From an uncultured Clostridia bacterium (GTDB lineage Bacteria; Bacillota; Clostridia; Lachnospirales; CAG-274): DNA of 64,000 nt. Shown here one piece after another: positions 644 to 53,037 of this stretch. The notes beneath the pieces were generated by a model that searched no databases, had not been told where the DNA came from, and saw only the letters and a list, made by a program, of their open reading frames with translations. Location of the stretch: assembly GCA_944384235.1 (NCBI GenBank), contig CALWSP010000014.1:1-64000 (forward strand), written 5' to 3'. The number at the start of each line of letters is the position of its first letter. Position 1 is the first letter of the stretch. Position numbers and translations under genes: made by a program.

Positions 644-3337
644 TTGAGAAAATCAATTAGACGAATTTTAAGTTCAGTTCTTACAGCTTCAATGTTACTT
701 TCATCAGTTACTGTTGGTAACGTTGCTTCTGTATTTGCTGCAACTGGAAGTGTTGAAACTACTTTACCTGTAACAGTAGACGCATCTAACGTTCCATTAA
801 AGTTTGACCAAGCTTTAACTGGCGGTGAAGTTAAAATTTCTACAAAATTTAGCATCAATGATCAGTTTGGTGGAAGTGGTGCAATCATTACTCTCCAGTA
901 TGCTACTGCTGATGGTGGTACAAAAGATAGTACTGCAAAGTTTAGATTAAACAGCACAAAAACTGGTGAAATTGTTCTTGATGCTGAAAGAACACTTGTT
1001 TTTGGTAACTTAGCATTAAGTTCTGAAAACACAATGGATTTTGTAGTTGACACTAATACTGGTAAATTTTCTGCATCTGTAAACGGTAGCGAAATGGCTA
1101 CTAGCGATGCTTGTGTTGATGCTAACTTAACTGCTGGTGTTGCTGGCATTAAGTTTTCTGCAAAATCTCCAAGAGTTATTACAATAACTGATGTAACATA
1201 CTCTACTAGTGGAGATTCAGTTGAAACTACAACAGAAGCTACAACTGCTGAAGCTACAACAGAGGCAACTACTGTTGAGGCTACAACAGAGGCTACAACT
1301 AACGCTCCTGTTGTTTCTGGCGACATTTCAATTAAGCCAGAATACAAGTTAAATGGCGATGAAATGGTTGTAGATTATAAGGTAACTGCTGGAGCAGGTG
1401 CAGGCTTCAACAACTACACTTTATATGTTACTTACGACCCAGCTGTTCTTACTCCTGTAAGTGCAACTGATGGCGACATTACTTTAACTGTTAAAGATGC
1501 AACTGGAAAAGATATTCAGCTTGTAGCATCTAATGCAGAAACAATTAACAGCCAGATTGCTGCTCAAGGTTCTACTGGTAAGGTTAAAATTGCTTACTGT
1601 GTATTTGACAAGGACTTTAGCTTAGCAAGCGGTTCTCTTCCATCATTTACAACTGGTGGTACTTTATTCTCTATCACATACAAGGTGACTGGTGAAGTTA
1701 AGGGCGGAACATTAGGCGTTGACGCAGAAACATTAAATGCTGTTTCTTCTGACAAGACTGTTCAGTCAACTCCAAATGTAACTGAAGAAGACACTATTAT
1801 TGAAGAAACTCCTGAAACTCCAGACAAGCCAGTTGTTACTGACTTAGCTATTACTGGTGAGGAAGTTGAGGCTGTTGATGGTAAGGCAACAGTTAGATTT
1901 AATTTAACAAACAACACTGCTGGTATTACAAACTATACAGTATTTGTTAAGTATGACCCAGCTAATATTAAGGCTGTTAGCGGTACAGCTGACAACTTTA
2001 AATACAACACAAATGTAGTAAATGAGCAGATTGCTTATGTTCCAGTAGCAACTGATACAGATTATCCAGGTGCTGATGGTGTTAAGACTGCTGCTGAATT
2101 AGGCGTTCTTAAAATTGCTGGCATTAGCGAAACTGCTGTTACTGGCGATGTAGAAGCATTTGCTATTGATTTTGAAGTAGTAAACCCAAGTGAAAATGGT
2201 GAGTATCCAGTTGAGCTTACAGTTGTTGCTGTTGGTGATGCTGATGCTCAGATTATAAACTGCGGAGCAGTTAATGGTTTAATTAAAGTAGATGCTGTTG
2301 AAACTTCAACAGAAACAACAACAGAGACTTCAACAGAAACAACAACTATTGTTACTGACACTACTACTGAAACTACAACTAGAAGACCATCTTCTGGCGG
2401 TGGCGGCGGTGGTGGCGGCGGTGGTAGCGTAAAGGTTACTACAACTACTGAAGCTACAACTGAAGCTGTTACTGAAGATTCAACTGAAGCAACTACAAAT
2501 GTTTTAGTTGCTGGCGAGGGTAATGAGCTTATTTTAGTTACTCCAAATGGTACAATTTCTTTAACTATTCCAACTGAAAAGATTGATGGTTTTGAAGGAT
2601 TTAACGACCTTGGTAACTATCCTTGGGCTAGTGATTCAATTAACAAGTTAGCTGAATTAGGAATTATTAATGGTATTGGAAATGGTGCATATGGCCCAGG
2701 TCTTCAGTGTAGAAGAGCTGACTTTGTAATCTTAGTAAACAGAACTCTTGGTATCAAGGTAAATGATTTATCTAAGAACTTTATTGATAATGTAGATACA
2801 AGCAAGTACTACTACAACGATGTTAAGGTAGGTTATAATGCTGGTATTATCCACGGTTACGGCGATGATACATTCAAGCCAGAACAGTACTGTACAAGAG
2901 AAGAAATGGCAGTTATGGTTGCTAACACATTTGTATGGTTAGGTGGTAACCTTGACAGTGTTGATGTATCTATTAACGATAGATATACAGATGTTGAGGA
3001 TATTGCATTCTGGTCTGCTAAGCACATTGCATTCTTAACAGATGCTGGCATCTTAAAGGGTAATGCAGATGGTACTTTATTACCAAAGAACTACATTAAC
3101 AGAGCAGAAATGGCAGTTATGATGTCTAGAGTATATGACATTGCTTTAGCAATTTCTGACAAAATTCACGCAGAAGCAACTACTGAGGAAACAACAGTAG
3201 ATGGCACAACTGTTGAAGGTAGCACAGAAACTACTACATTAGAAGCAACAACTACTGAAACAACTACTATTGAGGAAACTACAACAGCAGAAACAACAGT
3301 TGACGCTTCAACAGAAACTACAACAGTTGCTGAATAA
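644..3337 (+). CDS. SLH-anchored surface protein with two cohesin-like modules (candidate scaffoldin)
   Basis: An 897-residue secreted protein starting at TTG 644 behind AAAGGAGGA. Signal peptide about 1-32 (MRKSIRR, hydrophobic stretch, VFA). Residues about 36-190 form a beta-rich LamG-like module. A Thr/Glu linker (about 192-221) is followed by two cohesin-like modules, about 226-385 (NYTLYVTYDPAVLTPVS) and 400-550 (NYTVFVKYDPANIKAVSG). Next come a second Thr/Glu linker, a run of ten glycines (585-594), a third linker, and three SLH repeats (about 655-710, 712-768, 780-835) with the typical TREEMAVMV and NRAEMAVMM ends. SLH repeats bind pyruvylated wall polymer and hold the protein on the cell. 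A further Thr/Glu tail runs 844-897. The neighbouring gene encodes a dockerin enzyme, so anchor-and-cargo is the natural reading. Cohesin identity is by motif, not by search; plain adhesion is the alternative. Confidence 0.8.
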   Translation: MRKSIRRILSSVLTASMLLSSVTVGNVASVFAATGSVETTLPVTVDASNVPLKFDQALTGGEVKISTKFSINDQFGGSGAIITLQYATADGGTKDSTAKFRLNSTKTGEIVLDAERTLVFGNLALSSENTMDFVVDTNTGKFSASVNGSEMATSDACVDANLTAGVAGIKFSAKSPRVITITDVTYSTSGDSVETTTEATTAEATTEATTVEATTEATTNAPVVSGDISIKPEYKLNGDEMVVDYKVTAGAGAGFNNYTLYVTYDPAVLTPVSATDGDITLTVKDATGKDIQLVASNAETINSQIAAQGSTGKVKIAYCVFDKDFSLASGSLPSFTTGGTLFSITYKVTGEVKGGTLGVDAETLNAVSSDKTVQSTPNVTEEDTIIEETPETPDKPVVTDLAITGEEVEAVDGKATVRFNLTNNTAGITNYTVFVKYDPANIKAVSGTADNFKYNTNVVNEQIAYVPVATDTDYPGADGVKTAAELGVLKIAGISETAVTGDVEAFAIDFEVVNPSENGEYPVELTVVAVGDADAQIINCGAVNGLIKVDAVETSTETTTETSTETTTIVTDTTTETTTRRPSSGGGGGGGGGGSVKVTTTTEATTEAVTEDSTEATTNVLVAGEGNELILVTPNGTISLTIPTEKIDGFEGFNDLGNYPWASDSINKLAELGIINGIGNGAYGPGLQCRRADFVILVNRTLGIKVNDLSKNFIDNVDTSKYYYNDVKVGYNAGIIHGYGDDTFKPEQYCTREEMAVMVANTFVWLGGNLDSVDVSINDRYTDVEDIAFWSAKHIAFLTDAGILKGNADGTLLPKNYINRAEMAVMMSRVYDIALAISDKIHAEATTEETTVDGTTVEGSTETTTLEATTTETTTIEETTTAETTVDASTETTTVAE

Positions 3338-3348
3338 TTTAAAATTTA

Positions 3349-3377
3349 AGAGCTCTCTTTTGAGAGCTCTTTTTTTT
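3349..3377 (+). terminator. Terminator after the SLH/cohesin gene
   Basis: Perfect 9-bp stem AGAGCTCTC (3349-3357) with GAGAGCTCT (3362-3370), 4-base loop, run of eight T. It separates this gene from the esterase, which has its own promoter. Confidence 0.9.
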
Positions 3378-3453
3378 ATTTGAATTTTCAAACAAAAATT
3401 AAATAGTAATTTTGTATAAATTACATAAAAAAGAGTTTGATTTAAAAAATAGG

Positions 3454-3481
3454 TTGAAAAAATTTAACAATATGGTATAAT
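3454..3481 (+). promoter_or_regulatory. Promoter of the dockerin esterase
   Basis: TTGAAA (3454-3459), 16 bases, TATAAT (3476-3481). It predicts a leader of about 100 AT-rich bases, with no riboswitch fold that I recognise, before AAAAAGGAGG and ATG 3592. Confidence 0.65.
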
Positions 3482-3591
3482 TATGCTATATAGTGGTTTA
3501 ATAGTTTTATATAATAATATATTAAAAAATATTTTTAATATAGGTAAAATTATTGGACTATTGTCAAATTTATAAAAAGGAGGATTTTAAA

Positions 3592-6500
3592 ATGAAAGAC
3601 AGTTCTAAAAGAACAGTTAGCCGTCTTTTAGCTTTTGTTATGTTAGTATCTTCAATGTGTACTAATATGGTAATTGCTAATTCAGAAGATGGCGTAGTGT
3701 TAAACGAAGATGTTTTACTGTCTGAGGAGGCTATTGAAATGGTTGATAACTCAACTGAAGAAGTTGTTGTTGAAGCTGTTGACACTTTAGATGTTGTTAC
3801 TCCTGAGGCTGGTCAAACATATTCTGTTGATTTTGGTCAATTAGATACTAACGCTGACTTAACAAACTATGTTTCTGGCGATGGTATTTTTTCTTATTCT
3901 AATATAGGAGGAGGAAAATTCCACAGTGCTGGCTATGGTTTAGCTGTGAAGCCAGGAGATGTGCTTAAGGTAGCTGTTGCAGGAAATGCTGACATTTCCC
4001 TTATGTTATCTAGCTACGCTCCAGCAGATAGCAAGTTTGTTGTGACTGACGATGCTGGCAACAGAGTGGGTGAAGTATCAGCTTATGTTGCTACTGACAA
4101 AACAGAAAATGTATTTAAGTATTTAGGTAACGCAGGCACTTTAACATTTACATATGAAGGTGCTGGACAAGGTTATCTTAGAAGTGTAACAGCTGCTAAT
4201 GCTGCTGCTCCTGTTGGCGTTGCTGAAAGCTTTGAATTTTGGCTTGATGACGCTGTAAAAGATGGCGTAGTTGCTGCTGGCGATTATAAATTTGGTGACA
4301 GTGTTATTACTTTAGTTAAAGGTTTAGCTGGAGAGGATTACACACCAGATTTTGGAAACCTTGTAAGAAATGGCAAAGAAGTGAACGCATACAGAGCAGG
4401 TAAAAGACCAGCTGAGTGTAATGCTTACACAAAGGTTCCTGAAGCAGGTTCTGCAGTAGTATTTACTCCAGCTGCTAATGGTACATTCACTTGTTTCTTC
4501 TATTCTAGTTCATTTTTAAGAGTAAACGATTTTACTGACCCAGCTACTGCACCTATTACATTTATGGATTCTGAGGCAGGTGCTGAGTTCTATTCATTTA
4601 AAGCAGAAGCAGGACACACTTATGTTCTTTCTACAACTGGTAAGACAAACAACTGTGGTTTTGCTGGCTTTGAATATACAGTAGATGAAGCTATTACAGT
4701 TCCTGTAAATAGCTGGATTACAAACGGTAGCTATGACTATTCTAATGTTGAAATTACTTTAACTGATTCTTTCTTAGGAACAGTTAGTGCTGTGCTTAAC
4801 AAAGACACAACAAGTGTTACTCTTGCAAAGGGTCATACTTACACTATTTCAACAAATGATGGTGGTGCTAAGGCTACTGTAAACGGAAGCGATAGCTTTA
4901 AGGTTGTTGACGAAACTCCTATTCAGTTCACTATGGACGAAATTCCAGATGTTGAACTTACTGGTTCTTTCATTGGCGACAGCAGTACTGTAACTGAGGT
5001 TAAGTTTGTTAACACACTTACAGGTGTTGAAGCTGTTGCTACATTAAATGGTGATGGCACTTATAAGGCTGTTTTAAAGCCTGGTGACTACAAAACTTCT
5101 GTTACATCAAGCAAATTCTATACAAACGATAGAGTTGTTGTTGAACAGGGTGCAGAAAATGTTAATGACATTTATCTTGAGTCTTTAACTATGAGTAAAT
5201 ATATGTTACCTGAAGAAGTTCAAAGAAGTAGCTCTGCTTTAACTTTAAACGGAATTAAATATAACAACGCAACTTCTGTTAAGGGTGGCAAGGATAGCAC
5301 AATTGTTATTCCTGTTAATGGCAGACAAAAAATTACTGTTGCTGGCTGGTATTCAGGTACTTGGGACATTAATGGACAAAACACTGTAACTGCAGACTCT
5401 TCTAGCAACGCACAAAATCCAGTTACAAACGAATATGTAACAAATGGTACAGAAGAAAGTGTAACTGTAAACATTACTGGTGATGCAACAACTTACCTTT
5501 ACTGGATTACAGTAGAAGATATTGTTGATTTTAAGGCAGAAATTAACGTTCCTGGAGATTACGACACTTTATCTGAAGCATCAAAGGCTATTAGCAATAT
5601 GGTTGATAGACCTGATGGCGAAGATGGTAGAGTAACAATTAACCTTTTAAAAACTGTTCAGGAGCAGGTTGTATTTAACGCTCCATACATTACTTTAAAG
5701 GGTAATGGAAATGAAATTAATTGGTACTATGGTGTAGGCTATAAGTACTATTCTGTTGGTAGCGATGGTCTTTACAACGAAAGACTCTTCTACGATAAAT
5801 ACGAAAAAACAGAAGCAAGTGGTAGCCTTTGGGGTGGCACTGTTATTGTAAGAGGTGACAACTTCAAGGCTGAAAATGTTGTATTTAGAAACACATTTAA
5901 CTATGAAGTGACTGAGAAAGAATTGCTTGATGGCGTTGAGGGCATTAATATGCCAGTAAGAGATATAGCAAGCGATGTTACTGAATTTAAGTATAAAGAA
6001 AGAAGTAACGCTTTCTATATTGAAGCTGATAATATTGAGCTTTACAAGTGTGAAATTTTAGGTTCACAGGACGCTTTAGGTAGAAATGGTTCTGCTAACA
6101 ACAACTACCACACTTACTTTAACGATTGTGTTATTGCTGGTAATGTAGATTACATTTGTGGTGAATTTACAGCAGTATTTGACAATTGTGAGCTTCAGTG
6201 GAACACATATCCAAACGATGAAAAGAACAACCAGAGGGTTGGTTATATTGTAGCTCCTAAGACTAGCCCATATATCTTTAGAAATTGTGAGATTACAACA
6301 AACAAGGAAACTGCTGGTAGCGTATCTGGTTACTACGGTAGAACTTGGGGCGACAATTCTTGTTCTTACTTTATTAACACAGAAACAAACGGTTTAATTT
6401 CTGGTGAAGGTTGGGCAGAAATGTCTAGTGGCCAGTTAAGTTCAGCTGTATTTTATGAATATCAAAACACTTCTAACGGAACAGCTTTCACAACTAGTGT

Positions 6501-8424
6501 TGGCAAGCAGTTAGAAGATGCAACTACTATTGAAAATATGACAACTGACAAGATTATTGGTGCATATCTTAACTCTTGGACACCAACTTACTATGGTCTT
6601 GTTGAGGAAGAAGTTGGTTCTAGTTTAGGTGATGTAGATGGCGATGGTAAGATTACTATTAAAGACGTATCTGAACTTCTTAACTATGTATTAACTTCTA
6701 AAGAAACTGAAGGTTTTGTTTTAGCAAACGCTGATGTAAATGGCGATGGTTTAATTAACACAGCAGATGTTGCTTTAATTTTACAGAAAGTACTTGATTC
6801 TACATTTGAGTTCCCTACAAGTGAAACAACTGAGGGTGCAACAGAAACAACTACTACTGCAACTACTGAGGCAACAACAGAAGCAACTACTGAAGCAATA
6901 GAAGTTACAACAGAGGGAACTAACGAGCCAGTTGACGCACCTACTGTATATGTTGTAGGTGACTCTACTGCTTGTCATTATGCTGAAACTGAAGATACTT
7001 TCTATTGGTATAAGAGAGTAGGTTTTGGTGACAAAATTGCTGATTATATAAATGCAAATGTTGTAAACCTTGCATTATCTGGCAGGTCATCTAAGAGTTT
7101 TGCTACTGGTGTTAATGAAAACGGCATTACTGACGCAGCAGCAGTAGAAAACTATGCAAAATTAAAATCTGACATTAAAGCAGGCGATTATTTAATTATT
7201 GCTTGGGGTCACAACGATGAAAAGAATGATGAGTTTAGATTTACAGACCCTAATGGAGATATAAAGACACCTGGTTCTTTTAAGAACTCTTTATATGAAA
7301 ACTATATTAAGGTTGCTCAAGATGCAGGTGCAACTCCTATTCTTTGCACTCCAATTATAAGAGCAAACAGCAGTGGCACTTTAAGTGATAGCGATATGCA
7401 CAAGCCAGCAGCTGGTGACTACGGTCAATGTATCAGAGATTTAGCTAGTGAGTTAAACATTACTCTTATTGACAGTTTAAACAACACAGCAGATTTATAT
7501 TCTAAGCTTGGTGCAAACGCTGCTCCAACTCAGACTTCTGCTCCAACCGGATACTTTACTTTACATTCAGCTTTACAAGATTTAAGTGTGGATACTACTC
7601 ACTTAAACAACTTTGGTGCTAAGATGGTTGCTTATATGGTAGCTAGAGATATTAAGGCATCTGACAACACATTATCTGCATTTGTAAAAGATGGTATTAC
7701 AGAGCCAGTGTTTAGCCACGAAGATTGCTACAACACTAATTGGCAAGGTTTTGATGAAAGTATTTATGTTCCAAGCTCTATTTGGAAGGTTTCTGCACCT
7801 TGGGCAGGTTCTGTGTTTGGTTCTAGTGTAGGTTCATTTACTGAGGATAACCACCCAAATCACGATATTGTTGAAAAGGGTACTGGAAATGTTCAGCTTA
7901 TTGCTAGCAACAACAAGGGTAAAATTGCTGGTAGTGAAGATGGTCTTGTAATGTATTTCCAAGAAATTGGTGCAAATCAAGACTTCGAGTTTAGTGCTAC
8001 TGCACACATCAACTCTTATGATGCAACTGTTAACCAAACTGGTTTTGGTCTTATGTTAAGAGATAATATGTTCTCTGACTATGCATATAAGACAAAAGCT
8101 CCATATTATGCTGTTGGTAACACTAGCCAAAGTTCTGGTTCTCAGGTGATTCCTGTTTTCGAAAGATTAGACGGTTCACTTAAAAAATACAATACTAGAG
8201 CAGAAAGTGCTACAAAGGACACATTTGCTGCTGGTACAGATGTTGAGTTAAAGATTTCTAGAACTAATGGTGTAGTTACAGTTCAGTATGGTAACGACGA
8301 GCCATATACATTTACAAGCAACAATAACCTTGCATCAGTTAATGCAAATAATGATTATGTAGGTGTATTTGTTTCAAGAAATGCTGATATTACATTTAAC
8401 AACTTAAACTTAGTTTTAAAGTAA
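3592..8424 (+). CDS. Secreted pectin methylesterase (CE8) - dockerin - rhamnogalacturonan acetylesterase (CE12) fusion
   Basis: A 1610-residue secreted enzyme. An in-frame start at 3553 has no ribosome site; ATG 3592 follows AAAAAGGAGG and opens a signal peptide (MKDSSKRT, then a hydrophobic run to about 30). Residues about 40-640 are beta-rich modules probably binding glycan. About 650-1003 is a CE8 pectinesterase with GSQDAL (Q826, D827), GNVDYICG (D853) and YYGRTW (R917, W919), matching the family's Gln/Asp/Asp/Arg-Trp active site. About 1012-1070 is a dockerin with two calcium loops, DVDGDGKITIKD and DVNGDGLINTAD. A Thr/Glu linker leads to a CE12 SGNH esterase (GDST with S1125, GRSSKS, GHND with N1208, DTTH with D1334/H1337). 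About 1410-1610 is a LamG-like module. It should strip methyl groups from homogalacturonan and acetyl groups from rhamnogalacturonan I while docked to a cohesin. Substrates are inferred from family. Confidence 0.85.
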   Translation: MKDSSKRTVSRLLAFVMLVSSMCTNMVIANSEDGVVLNEDVLLSEEAIEMVDNSTEEVVVEAVDTLDVVTPEAGQTYSVDFGQLDTNADLTNYVSGDGIFSYSNIGGGKFHSAGYGLAVKPGDVLKVAVAGNADISLMLSSYAPADSKFVVTDDAGNRVGEVSAYVATDKTENVFKYLGNAGTLTFTYEGAGQGYLRSVTAANAAAPVGVAESFEFWLDDAVKDGVVAAGDYKFGDSVITLVKGLAGEDYTPDFGNLVRNGKEVNAYRAGKRPAECNAYTKVPEAGSAVVFTPAANGTFTCFFYSSSFLRVNDFTDPATAPITFMDSEAGAEFYSFKAEAGHTYVLSTTGKTNNCGFAGFEYTVDEAITVPVNSWITNGSYDYSNVEITLTDSFLGTVSAVLNKDTTSVTLAKGHTYTISTNDGGAKATVNGSDSFKVVDETPIQFTMDEIPDVELTGSFIGDSSTVTEVKFVNTLTGVEAVATLNGDGTYKAVLKPGDYKTSVTSSKFYTNDRVVVEQGAENVNDIYLESLTMSKYMLPEEVQRSSSALTLNGIKYNNATSVKGGKDSTIVIPVNGRQKITVAGWYSGTWDINGQNTVTADSSSNAQNPVTNEYVTNGTEESVTVNITGDATTYLYWITVEDIVDFKAEINVPGDYDTLSEASKAISNMVDRPDGEDGRVTINLLKTVQEQVVFNAPYITLKGNGNEINWYYGVGYKYYSVGSDGLYNERLFYDKYEKTEASGSLWGGTVIVRGDNFKAENVVFRNTFNYEVTEKELLDGVEGINMPVRDIASDVTEFKYKERSNAFYIEADNIELYKCEILGSQDALGRNGSANNNYHTYFNDCVIAGNVDYICGEFTAVFDNCELQWNTYPNDEKNNQRVGYIVAPKTSPYIFRNCEITTNKETAGSVSGYYGRTWGDNSCSYFINTETNGLISGEGWAEMSSGQLSSAVFYEYQNTSNGTAFTTSVGKQLEDATTIENMTTDKIIGAYLNSWTPTYYGLVEEEVGSSLGDVDGDGKITIKDVSELLNYVLTSKETEGFVLANADVNGDGLINTADVALILQKVLDSTFEFPTSETTEGATETTTTATTEATTEATTEAIEVTTEGTNEPVDAPTVYVVGDSTACHYAETEDTFYWYKRVGFGDKIADYINANVVNLALSGRSSKSFATGVNENGITDAAAVENYAKLKSDIKAGDYLIIAWGHNDEKNDEFRFTDPNGDIKTPGSFKNSLYENYIKVAQDAGATPILCTPIIRANSSGTLSDSDMHKPAAGDYGQCIRDLASELNITLIDSLNNTADLYSKLGANAAPTQTSAPTGYFTLHSALQDLSVDTTHLNNFGAKMVAYMVARDIKASDNTLSAFVKDGITEPVFSHEDCYNTNWQGFDESIYVPSSIWKVSAPWAGSVFGSSVGSFTEDNHPNHDIVEKGTGNVQLIASNNKGKIAGSEDGLVMYFQEIGANQDFEFSATAHINSYDATVNQTGFGLMLRDNMFSDYAYKTKAPYYAVGNTSQSSGSQVIPVFERLDGSLKKYNTRAESATKDTFAAGTDVELKISRTNGVVTVQYGNDEPYTFTSNNNLASVNANNDYVGVFVSRNADITFNNLNLVLK

Positions 8425-50679: not shown

Positions 50680-53037
50680 TTGAAAAAATTTATTGCAGGT
50701 TTTATGGCTTTAAGCATTATATTTTCTTCTATTTGTGTATATGGAGGTGAAAGCAAAATTCCAGCTTTCCCAGGAGCTGAAGGCGGAGGAAAGTATGTTT
50801 CTGGTGGTAGAGGCGGAGAAGTTTATGTTGTTACCACTTTAGAAGATTATGACCCTGACACAGAAGAAGCGATTAAAGGCTCTTTTAGAGATGCTGTTAG
50901 CAAGGACAACAGAATTGTTGTGTTTAATGTTGGTGGTGTTATTAAATTAAAAAACAAGTTAAACATTACAAAAAGAAACAATTTGACAATTGCAGGGCAA
51001 ACTGCTCCAGGAAATGGAATTACAGTTTATGGTTATGAAACAAATTTAAGTAATTCAAACAATATTATTATGAGATATTTAAGGTTTAGGCCAGGAGCTG
51101 AAAATGTTTTAAAAGGGGACTCTATGGACTCTATTTGGGGCAGGTCTATGAAAAACCTTATGATTGACCATTTATCTTGTTCTTGGTCAACTGACGAAAC
51201 AATGTCATTATACAGAGCGGAAAACGCAACTATACAGTGGTGTATTATTGCTGAAAGTCTTACTATGTCAGGCCATACAAAGGGTAGACACGGCTATGGA
51301 GCAATAGTTGGAGGAGTTAACGCAACATACCACCACAATTTATATGCAAACCACACTTCAAGAAACCCAAGGTTTGGAGGAGGAACTGTTGAGGCTGATG
51401 ACAACGAGCATATAGCTTTATTTGATTTTAGAAACAATGTTATTTACAACTGGGGTTTTAACACTGGATATGGTGGAGGACGAGCTAACCAAAATTATGT
51501 ATACAACTATATGAAAGCTGGGCAAGGAACTAGAGATAGTGTTAAAGACAGAGTTATTGATTGTGGCGAGAAAAACAAGCCATCTAAGTTTTATGTGTTT
51601 GGAAATGTTTTAGAGGGAAATGAAAAAATTAGCAAGGACAACAGTTTAGGTGTTTATGTTTCTGAAAGCAACAAAAAATTTACTGAAATAGTTAATTCTG
51701 AATTTAAAATGGAGGGAACTAAGAAAGAAAATTTAACTACTAACTCTCCTGAAAATGCTTATGAGTTAGTTCTTAACAGAGCAGGAGCTACTTTACCCTT
51801 AAGAGATGGCTTAGATAGCAGAATTGTTTCTTCAGTTAGAAACGACAGTGGTTATTTTGTGAACAGAGATGAGGAAGTTGGCGGGCTTCCATACAACGAT
51901 GTTGTTTACAGAGAAGCTGATTTTGACAAGGACTTAGACGGCATTGACGACAGATGGGAAATGGAAAATGGTTTGGACTTTAACAACCCATTTGACAGCA
52001 GGGAAATAGCTGAAAATGGATATGCTAACATAGAAAATTATATTAATAGTTTAGTTGATATGGAGTATGAGCCAACAAACCCTGATGTTGAAATTGTTGA
52101 GCCAAAAGACAACAGTCAATTTGATGTTTCAGAAGTGATAGATGTTAAAGTTAATGCTAGTGAAGATACTGTTAAGGTTGATTTTTATAACAATGATAAA
52201 TTGATTTATAGCGATGATAGTTATCCTTTTGAAATGGCTATTAGTGGGTTTGATGATGGAAGTTACAACATTGTTGCAAAAGCTACAAATGACAAGGGTG
52301 AGATGACACAAGCTACGGCTAAAAAAATACATATTAACAAAAAAACTGACCTTGAAAATTGGGAGTTTACAGACGTTGGAGAGCCAAATATTAAAGGTTG
52401 TGCTTATGTAGAAGATGGTGTGTATACTGTTAAGGGCAGTGGAAAAATTAAAGAAAAAGACGACTCTTTTGGGTATTTATATAAAAAGGTAAATGGGGAT
52501 TTTGATTTTACTGTTAAGGTAGATAGTACTACACCTGTTGACAACCACGCATTTGCAGGGATTATGGTTAGAAACTCTTTAGATAGTTCAAGTGCAAATG
52601 TTGCTCTTGGTATTTCACACACAAAGGCCTACGAGTGGAAAGAATTAAACGAAGAAACTAAAAAAACTACAACTTATTATAGAAACCCTTTTGGTGTTTA
52701 CCTTTGTGGCAGGGACAAGGACAACGGGAATATGGACACTTTATCTGAAAATTTAGATTCTATTGAAAGTGCTTTAAAAACTGGCGTTCAGCTTAAAAAG
52801 GATATAGAGTTTAAAAATGGACTTGAGTATACAGGATATTATTTAAGACTTGTTAGAAACGGGGATAAATTTGTTGCCTATTGTTCAAAAGACGGAAACA
52901 GATGGGAAATAGTTGGTAGCAAGAGTTTAAAAATGAACAAAGAGATTTATATTGGGCTTGGTGTTGACTTAAACAAGGTAGACAACAACTTAGACAATTT
53001 AAACACAGTTAAGTTTGAAAAGATTAAATTAAAATAA
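50680..53037 (+). CDS. Secreted PL1 pectate lyase with Ig-like and LamG-like modules
   Basis: A 785-residue secreted enzyme starting at TTG 50680 behind AAGGGAGGT. Signal peptide about 1-22. The beta-helix lyase (about 28-400) starts FPGAEGGGKYVSGGRGGEVYVVTT, has MIDHLSCSWSTDETMS and the Arg-bearing HHNLYANHTSRNPRFGG (R228, R231), as in PL1 pectate lyases. A calcium-loop segment DFDKDLDGIDDRWE (about 413-426) follows. About 467-555 is a bacterial Ig-like domain (PDVEIVEPKDNS), and about 560-785 a LamG/DUF1349-like module. No dockerin and no SLH, so it is probably released. It would cleave de-esterified polygalacturonate, completing the work of the esterase at 3592. Own promoter and terminator. 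Confidence 0.9.
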   Translation: MKKFIAGFMALSIIFSSICVYGGESKIPAFPGAEGGGKYVSGGRGGEVYVVTTLEDYDPDTEEAIKGSFRDAVSKDNRIVVFNVGGVIKLKNKLNITKRNNLTIAGQTAPGNGITVYGYETNLSNSNNIIMRYLRFRPGAENVLKGDSMDSIWGRSMKNLMIDHLSCSWSTDETMSLYRAENATIQWCIIAESLTMSGHTKGRHGYGAIVGGVNATYHHNLYANHTSRNPRFGGGTVEADDNEHIALFDFRNNVIYNWGFNTGYGGGRANQNYVYNYMKAGQGTRDSVKDRVIDCGEKNKPSKFYVFGNVLEGNEKISKDNSLGVYVSESNKKFTEIVNSEFKMEGTKKENLTTNSPENAYELVLNRAGATLPLRDGLDSRIVSSVRNDSGYFVNRDEEVGGLPYNDVVYREADFDKDLDGIDDRWEMENGLDFNNPFDSREIAENGYANIENYINSLVDMEYEPTNPDVEIVEPKDNSQFDVSEVIDVKVNASEDTVKVDFYNNDKLIYSDDSYPFEMAISGFDDGSYNIVAKATNDKGEMTQATAKKIHINKKTDLENWEFTDVGEPNIKGCAYVEDGVYTVKGSGKIKEKDDSFGYLYKKVNGDFDFTVKVDSTTPVDNHAFAGIMVRNSLDSSSANVALGISHTKAYEWKELNEETKKTTTYYRNPFGVYLCGRDKDNGNMDTLSENLDSIESALKTGVQLKKDIEFKNGLEYTGYYLRLVRNGDKFVAYCSKDGNRWEIVGSKSLKMNKEIYIGLGVDLNKVDNNLDNLNTVKFEKIKLK

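Follow-up and report, generated by a model that had tools for sequence, protein, structure and literature searches.

The substrates known for cohesin–dockerin assembly are cellulose and hemicellulose, joined more recently by starch and mucin. In the gut Firmicute Monoglobus pectinilyticus, SLH repeats are reportedly fused directly to surface pectinases. The closest docking systems differ in size and substrate. OlpA and OlpC of Clostridium thermocellum combine a type I cohesin with SLH and are capable of directly binding enzymes that carry a type I dockerin (PMC4045903). The Ruminococcus bromii amylosome consists of few enzymes and small scaffoldins, among them Sca5, which pairs a cell-surface anchor with two cohesins (PMC5814915). 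The Limousia mucinolysome, a gut, MAG-derived, cellulosome-like system, holds mucin glycosidases and no polysaccharide lyases (PMC12997984). Clostridium saccharoperbutylacetonicum, with one two-cohesin scaffoldin and eight dockerin enzymes, has been called the smallest known system (PMC7157769). Pectinases in cellulose-based cellulosomes are well known (PMC4319962). No pectin-dedicated cohesin–dockerin system was found in a literature search by title and abstract, with subscription papers mostly outside its reach, and the word "pectinosome" was absent from the literature accessible to search. The main recent census of bacteria with cellulosomes took as its entry criterion a GH from listed families fused to a dockerin, and it excluded metagenome genomes; pectin docking systems were therefore outside its reach by design (PMC11557425).

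Here we analysed a stretch of 64,000 nucleotides (the window), which starts at the end of contig C14 of an uncultured, gut-type bacterium. Its genome (G000; 1.75 Mb, 29 contigs, 99% complete) is the smallest of its genus. The genome quite probably encodes a minimal, pectin-dedicated, cellulosome-like surface system, of which the window would contain the anchoring half and one enzyme. A multi-cohesin scaffoldin and dockerin-bearing enzymes, by which a cellulosome is recognised, are both present. It is not a strict cellulosome, because a scaffold CBM3 and dockerin-bearing cellulases were sought and not found; on the best reading, it may work like the OlpA/OlpC display or the R. bromii amylosome.

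As in OlpA and OlpC, the scaffold is a predicted SLH-anchored protein to which type I dockerin enzymes would bind directly, and Coh-OlpA and Coh-OlpC are among the best structural matches to its model. Unlike them, it has two cohesins, no CipA-type scaffoldin accompanies it, and the docked carbohydrate enzymes would be pectinases only. The R. bromii amylosome is also specialised on one substrate, which is starch (GH13) with sortase anchoring, whereas here it would be pectin (PL1, CE8, CE12-like) with SLH. The Limousia system is likewise a gut MAG cellulosome-like system for a non-cellulose substrate, with mucin glycosidases in place of the pectin lyases and esterases found here. C. saccharoperbutylacetonicum shares the two-cohesin scaffoldin and the few dockerin enzymes, but its two CBM3, X2 modules and cellulases have no counterpart here, where only four pectinases would be docked. 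With M. pectinilyticus the common trait would be SLH-anchored pectin degradation, the anchoring here passing through cohesin–dockerin pairs. If this reading is true, pectin joins starch and mucin as the third substrate with a specialised docking system of its own, and a version for pectin alone would show docking to be a general route to single-glycan specialisation. In a system this small, every enzyme–anchor pair could be tested.

The scaffold protein carries two cohesins and three SLH repeats

The first gene encodes a secreted protein in which a beta-sandwich-like domain, T/E-rich linkers, two cohesins, a glycine run and three SLH repeats follow each other from the N to the C terminus.

644-3337, + strand: scaffold with two cohesins and a predicted SLH anchor, 897 aa, TTG start; orthologues in G001, G002 and G006
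743-1219, + strand: N-terminal beta-sandwich domain, possibly concanavalin/LamG-like (tentative, low confidence)
1313-1807, + strand: cohesin module 1 (Coh1), without a ~20 aa insert that orthologues retain (Pfam 32.3 bits; alignment)
1829-2311, + strand: cohesin module 2 (Coh2) (predicted fold against type I cohesins, Z 15.7; family profile, 143 bits)
2591-3115, + strand: three SLH repeats, predicted cell-wall anchor (Pfam match)

In favour of translation from TTG 644 are a strong RBS and orthologues whose start is likewise Leu-coded. The SLH model (PF00395) matched with an E value of 1.4e-33 and three repeats. The N-terminal domain gave a single-sequence model with a pLDDT of 59.6 and lectin-like Foldseek matches at E ~3e-6; its assignment as a carbohydrate-binding module was considered and dropped, the structure model being too weak. 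A domain similar to it is repeated in one orthologue. No CBM3 was found in the scaffold at E values up to 1.

The whole scaffold scored 24.3 bits against the Pfam Cohesin model (PF00963; cut-off 24.1). When scanned alone, Coh1 reached 32.3 bits (E 1.4e-7) and passed the gathering score of 24.1, and Coh2 gave no Pfam match. The structure of residues 224-560 was predicted with eight homologous rows (pLDDT 77.8, pTM 0.50). The top Foldseek match of this Coh1-Coh2 model was a solved type II cohesin dyad (E 1e-10), and the top 35 matches were cohesin or scaffoldin structures. In the predicted structure, Coh2 superposed on type I cohesins with a Z score of ~15.7 and an rmsd of 2.1 over 130 residues; Z scores were 14-16 against type I and 10-11 against type II cohesins, type itself being defined by binding. 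Coh1, barely covered by the superposition search that gave the Z score of Coh2, is supported by Pfam, the dyad match and the orthologues. A PDB sequence search with the scaffold returned SLH structures as its only convincing matches, and the cohesin profile found weak scaffoldin matches in the PDB (best E 0.009). A contig profile search with the cohesin region of the scaffold alone gave no matches; the orthologue alignment as query succeeded. Both cohesin modules recur in the scaffold orthologues, which share 39-52% whole-protein identity. Chance similarity as the origin of the cohesin matches was ruled out, because the predicted fold matches cohesins and the modules recur in orthologues. These results confirm that the scaffold bears two genuine cohesin modules, Coh1 by Pfam and Coh2 by predicted fold and family profile.

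The insert of about 20 aa missing from Coh1 (NVPEAGNSDFEGADGVKTQ in G001) is present in its orthologues and in Coh2. Because the orthologues keep it, the specificity of Coh1 may have shifted after its loss.

A dockerin-bearing double esterase is encoded next to the scaffold

The neighbouring gene encodes a secreted protein with two esterase domains on either side of a dockerin.

3348-3371, + strand: intrinsic terminator between the scaffold and esterase genes (10-pair stem and T-tract)
3454-3481, + strand: promoter-like site of the esterase gene, TTGAAA-16-TATAAT
3592-8424, + strand: secreted protein, predicted CE8 pectin methylesterase, dockerin and SGNH/CE12-like acetylesterase, 1610 aa, ATG start
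5935-6501, + strand: CE8 pectinesterase domain, Pfam-matched part (E 9.6e-21; catalytic Asp/Asp/Arg motifs)
6625-6816, + strand: class A dockerin of type I with both calcium loops complete (40.9 bits; 48.2 bits; class A alignment)
6946-7632, + strand: SGNH/GDSL acetylesterase domain, CE12-like (two GDSL models; GDST/GHND/DxxH motifs)

The catalytic motifs were QDAL, VDYICG and YGRTW in the CE8 domain and GDST, GHND and DTTHLN in the SGNH domain. The 40.9 bits of the dockerin were obtained with Dockerin_1 (PF00404), and both of its calcium loops are intact. The NCBIfam model of the pectin acetylesterase PaeY matched the protein below its cut-off. The esterase likely starts at ATG 3592, with AAAAGGAGG upstream, and TTG 3553 was set aside in its favour.

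A two-gene operon was rejected, because a terminator lies between the genes and their adjacency is not conserved; a scaffold gene adjoining a CE8-dockerin gene was not seen in G001 or G002. Given the terminator and the promoter-like site between them, the two genes are neighbours and probably not one operon, although that promoter-like site is weak, since such sites are as frequent in shuffled sequence as in the region.

The other-genus scaffold orthologues at L146 and L149 (position 9275) open with the CE8 protein's signal peptide (MKNGSTKRTISRVLAFVMLVS), which may be a sign of module swapping.

The preliminary description had proposed two cohesins and three SLH repeats on one protein, a neighbouring secreted double esterase with a complete two-loop dockerin, and a locus free of CBM3. 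All of this was borne out, by Pfam for Coh1 and the SLH repeats, by fold and family profile for Coh2, and by the CE8, Dockerin_1 and GDSL models for the esterase. The HMM searches that it had put forward succeeded for the dockerin and for Coh1 but not for Coh2. Its small pectin surface system is retained as an SLH-anchored cohesin–dockerin pectin set, well supported by the module content of the whole genome; the "two-gene locus" is not, because the genes are dispersed over contigs, a terminator separates the pair and the adjacency is absent in relatives.

Dockerins, cohesins and lyases in the genome

The genome-wide dockerin count, also proposed earlier, gave five proteins, four of them pectinases and one an M60 peptidase. 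The pectinases are the CE8/SGNH esterase of the window, a PL1 with the pectin-binding module CBM77, a further PL1, and a PL1-type lyase with DUF1349. Three of the four PL1-type lyases of the genome thus carry a dockerin; the fourth lies in the window.

50680-53037, + strand: fourth PL1-type lyase, no dockerin and no SLH, apparently not docked

No GH13 amylases and no cellulases (GH48, GH9, GH5) were found among the five dockerin proteins, nor were mucin glycosidases. A second cohesin-SLH protein (461 aa, contig C1) is encoded beside the M60 gene, with a cohesin below the Pfam cut-off. The genome has three recognised cohesins, all on SLH proteins, and all would therefore be wall-anchored. No free primary scaffoldin was found in the genome with the Pfam cohesin model. 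The pectin docking genes are dispersed, with the three further pectinase-dockerin genes and the second cohesin-SLH protein on other contigs.

In the dockerin of one PL1-type lyase (L087) and of its orthologues (L229, L250, L240, L297 and L306), the acidic ligands of loop 2 are lost and the third helix is conserved.

Pectinase dockerins form a separate class

The four pectinase dockerins of the window genome, whose own scores are inflated as a result, served to build a profile, termed class A. Applied to six genomes (G000, G001, G002, G004, G005 and G006), it split their 76 dockerin proteins into 27 scoring at least 46 and 49 scoring 38 or less. Pectin lyases or esterases (PL1, PL1-type, PL9-like beta-helix, CE8) carry 25 of the 27 class A dockerins, and small cyclophilin-like proteins carry the other two; outside class A, pectin enzymes carry 10 of 49. 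The Fisher p value of 7e-10 (1e-8 without the window genome) is descriptive, because orthologues are not independent and four of the 27 also trained the profile. A conserved third helix (DVA.ILQkvLDSsy) closes the class A consensus. The dockerin halves are unlike at loop positions 10-11 and in the helices, which, by established dockerin knowledge, speaks for a single binding mode over a dual one. At the level of sequence, class A is a discrete dockerin class that recurs across the genus and is strongly associated with pectin enzymes.

The M60 family includes mucin-degrading peptidases. At L088 7834-16084 (G000, C1 ~121.8-130.1 kb), the cohesin-SLH protein, the dockerin-M60 peptidase and a second SLH protein are encoded in a row. 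With a class A profile score of 1.2, the M60 dockerin falls outside the pectinase class, and this locus is perhaps a further docking pair, independent of the pectin set, whose targets may be mucin or other glycoproteins. Together with the dockerins on LRR proteins in relatives, an M60 peptidase flanked on both sides by SLH proteins would fit a role of the whole system in adhesion or host interaction, the link to pectinases being incidental. Such a role is very improbable, given the strong association of class A with pectin enzymes and the position of the M60 dockerin outside class A.

Cohesins of the scaffold belong to a clade matched in one family of the order

In the cohesin tree, Coh1 and Coh2 of the scaffold grouped with the single SLH cohesin and were separated from most of the remaining cohesins of the genus; Coh2 of G006 was the exception and fell outside the clade. 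A profile of the clade matched in 35 of the 392 genomes of the order, and all 35 are in the bacterium's own family. Each of the six class A genomes has at least one clade cohesin on an SLH protein. GH48 occurs in one of 48 family genomes and in none of the genus. On balance, we lean slightly towards the view that the whole uncultured family builds pectin-specific surface "pectinosomes" from this cohesin clade of its own and the dedicated dockerin class; they would be a third substrate-specialised offshoot of the cellulosome, with its smallest set in the window genome.

In G004 and G005, class A dockerins occur together with the single-cohesin SLH protein, and no orthologue of the two-cohesin scaffold is present. 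The two-cohesin scaffold is therefore not obligatory for class A, and the single-cohesin protein may be the main class A partner. Taken further, the pectinase dockerins would bind mainly the 461 aa protein of C1 and the window scaffold would have another ligand, as the insert lost from its Coh1 could also suggest. We consider this unlikely, because the scaffold cohesins share a clade with the single cohesin and the scaffold adjoins a class A dockerin gene in the window genome.

Proposed assembly

In the preferred reading, that of a minimal pectin-dedicated surface system, the two-cohesin SLH protein and the one-cohesin SLH protein encoded elsewhere would sit on the cell wall. The four secreted class A pectinases would plug directly into their cohesins, with no free primary scaffoldin in between. 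Methyl and acetyl esters would be removed from pectin by the CE8 and SGNH domains, the docked PL1 lyases would cut demethylated homogalacturonan beside the cell, presumably in synergy, and the CBM77 on one lyase would provide substrate contact. With two cohesins per scaffold, any complex would be very small. It is quite possible, if short of probable, that the cohesin-SLH proteins are OlpA-like hooks that display single enzymes with no enzyme–enzyme proximity effect. Each anchor has only one or two cohesins, the Pfam cohesin model found no free primary scaffoldin in the genome, and OlpA and OlpC of C. thermocellum carry type I cohesins together with SLH (PMC4045903). However, G001, G002 and G006 all retain the two-cohesin scaffold, which suggests that pairing is useful.

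Comparison with relatives

Sister species have 7-23 dockerin matches, and the well-assembled ones 11-23, with 4-7 cohesin matches. Compared with these, the five dockerins of the window genome, at 1.75 Mb the smallest of its genus, could be the remnant of a larger ancestral cohesin–dockerin system in a reduced genome, whose complex is no longer functional. This is improbable, because the kept genes are intact, with calcium loops and catalytic motifs present, and the retained set is coherent for pectin rather than a random subset. The sister dockerin proteins of G001, G002 and G004 include pectate lyases, CE8, CBM77, GH88-type enzymes and LRR proteins; no cellulase or xylanase model was found among the listed dockerin-protein families of G001, G002 (25 of 27 families) and G004.

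At L219, L247 and L237 (G001, G002 and G004), a cluster encodes a PL1-dockerin protein, a PL1-cohesin-dockerin protein and a small cohesin-dockerin adaptor of ~245 aa; this three-gene cluster was not seen in the dockerin census of the window genome. The scaffold protein of G001 is also found, unchanged, in the public record of Candidatus Gallispira edinburgensis, from the chicken gut, and the other scaffold relatives are MAGs with labels beginning "Lapin".

The sole dockerin in five genomes of genus g10 is an N-terminal one, on the orthologue of a large M60-type protein. In three of them (L264, L265 and L266 in G037, G044 and G041), the next gene after the M60-type gene encodes a smaller secreted protein. 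Two of these three, read fully, have SLH repeats and a divergent, possibly cohesin-like N-terminus, a region with no Pfam cohesin match. The M60 protein of g10 and its SLH neighbour are possibly a one-dockerin, one-partner system.
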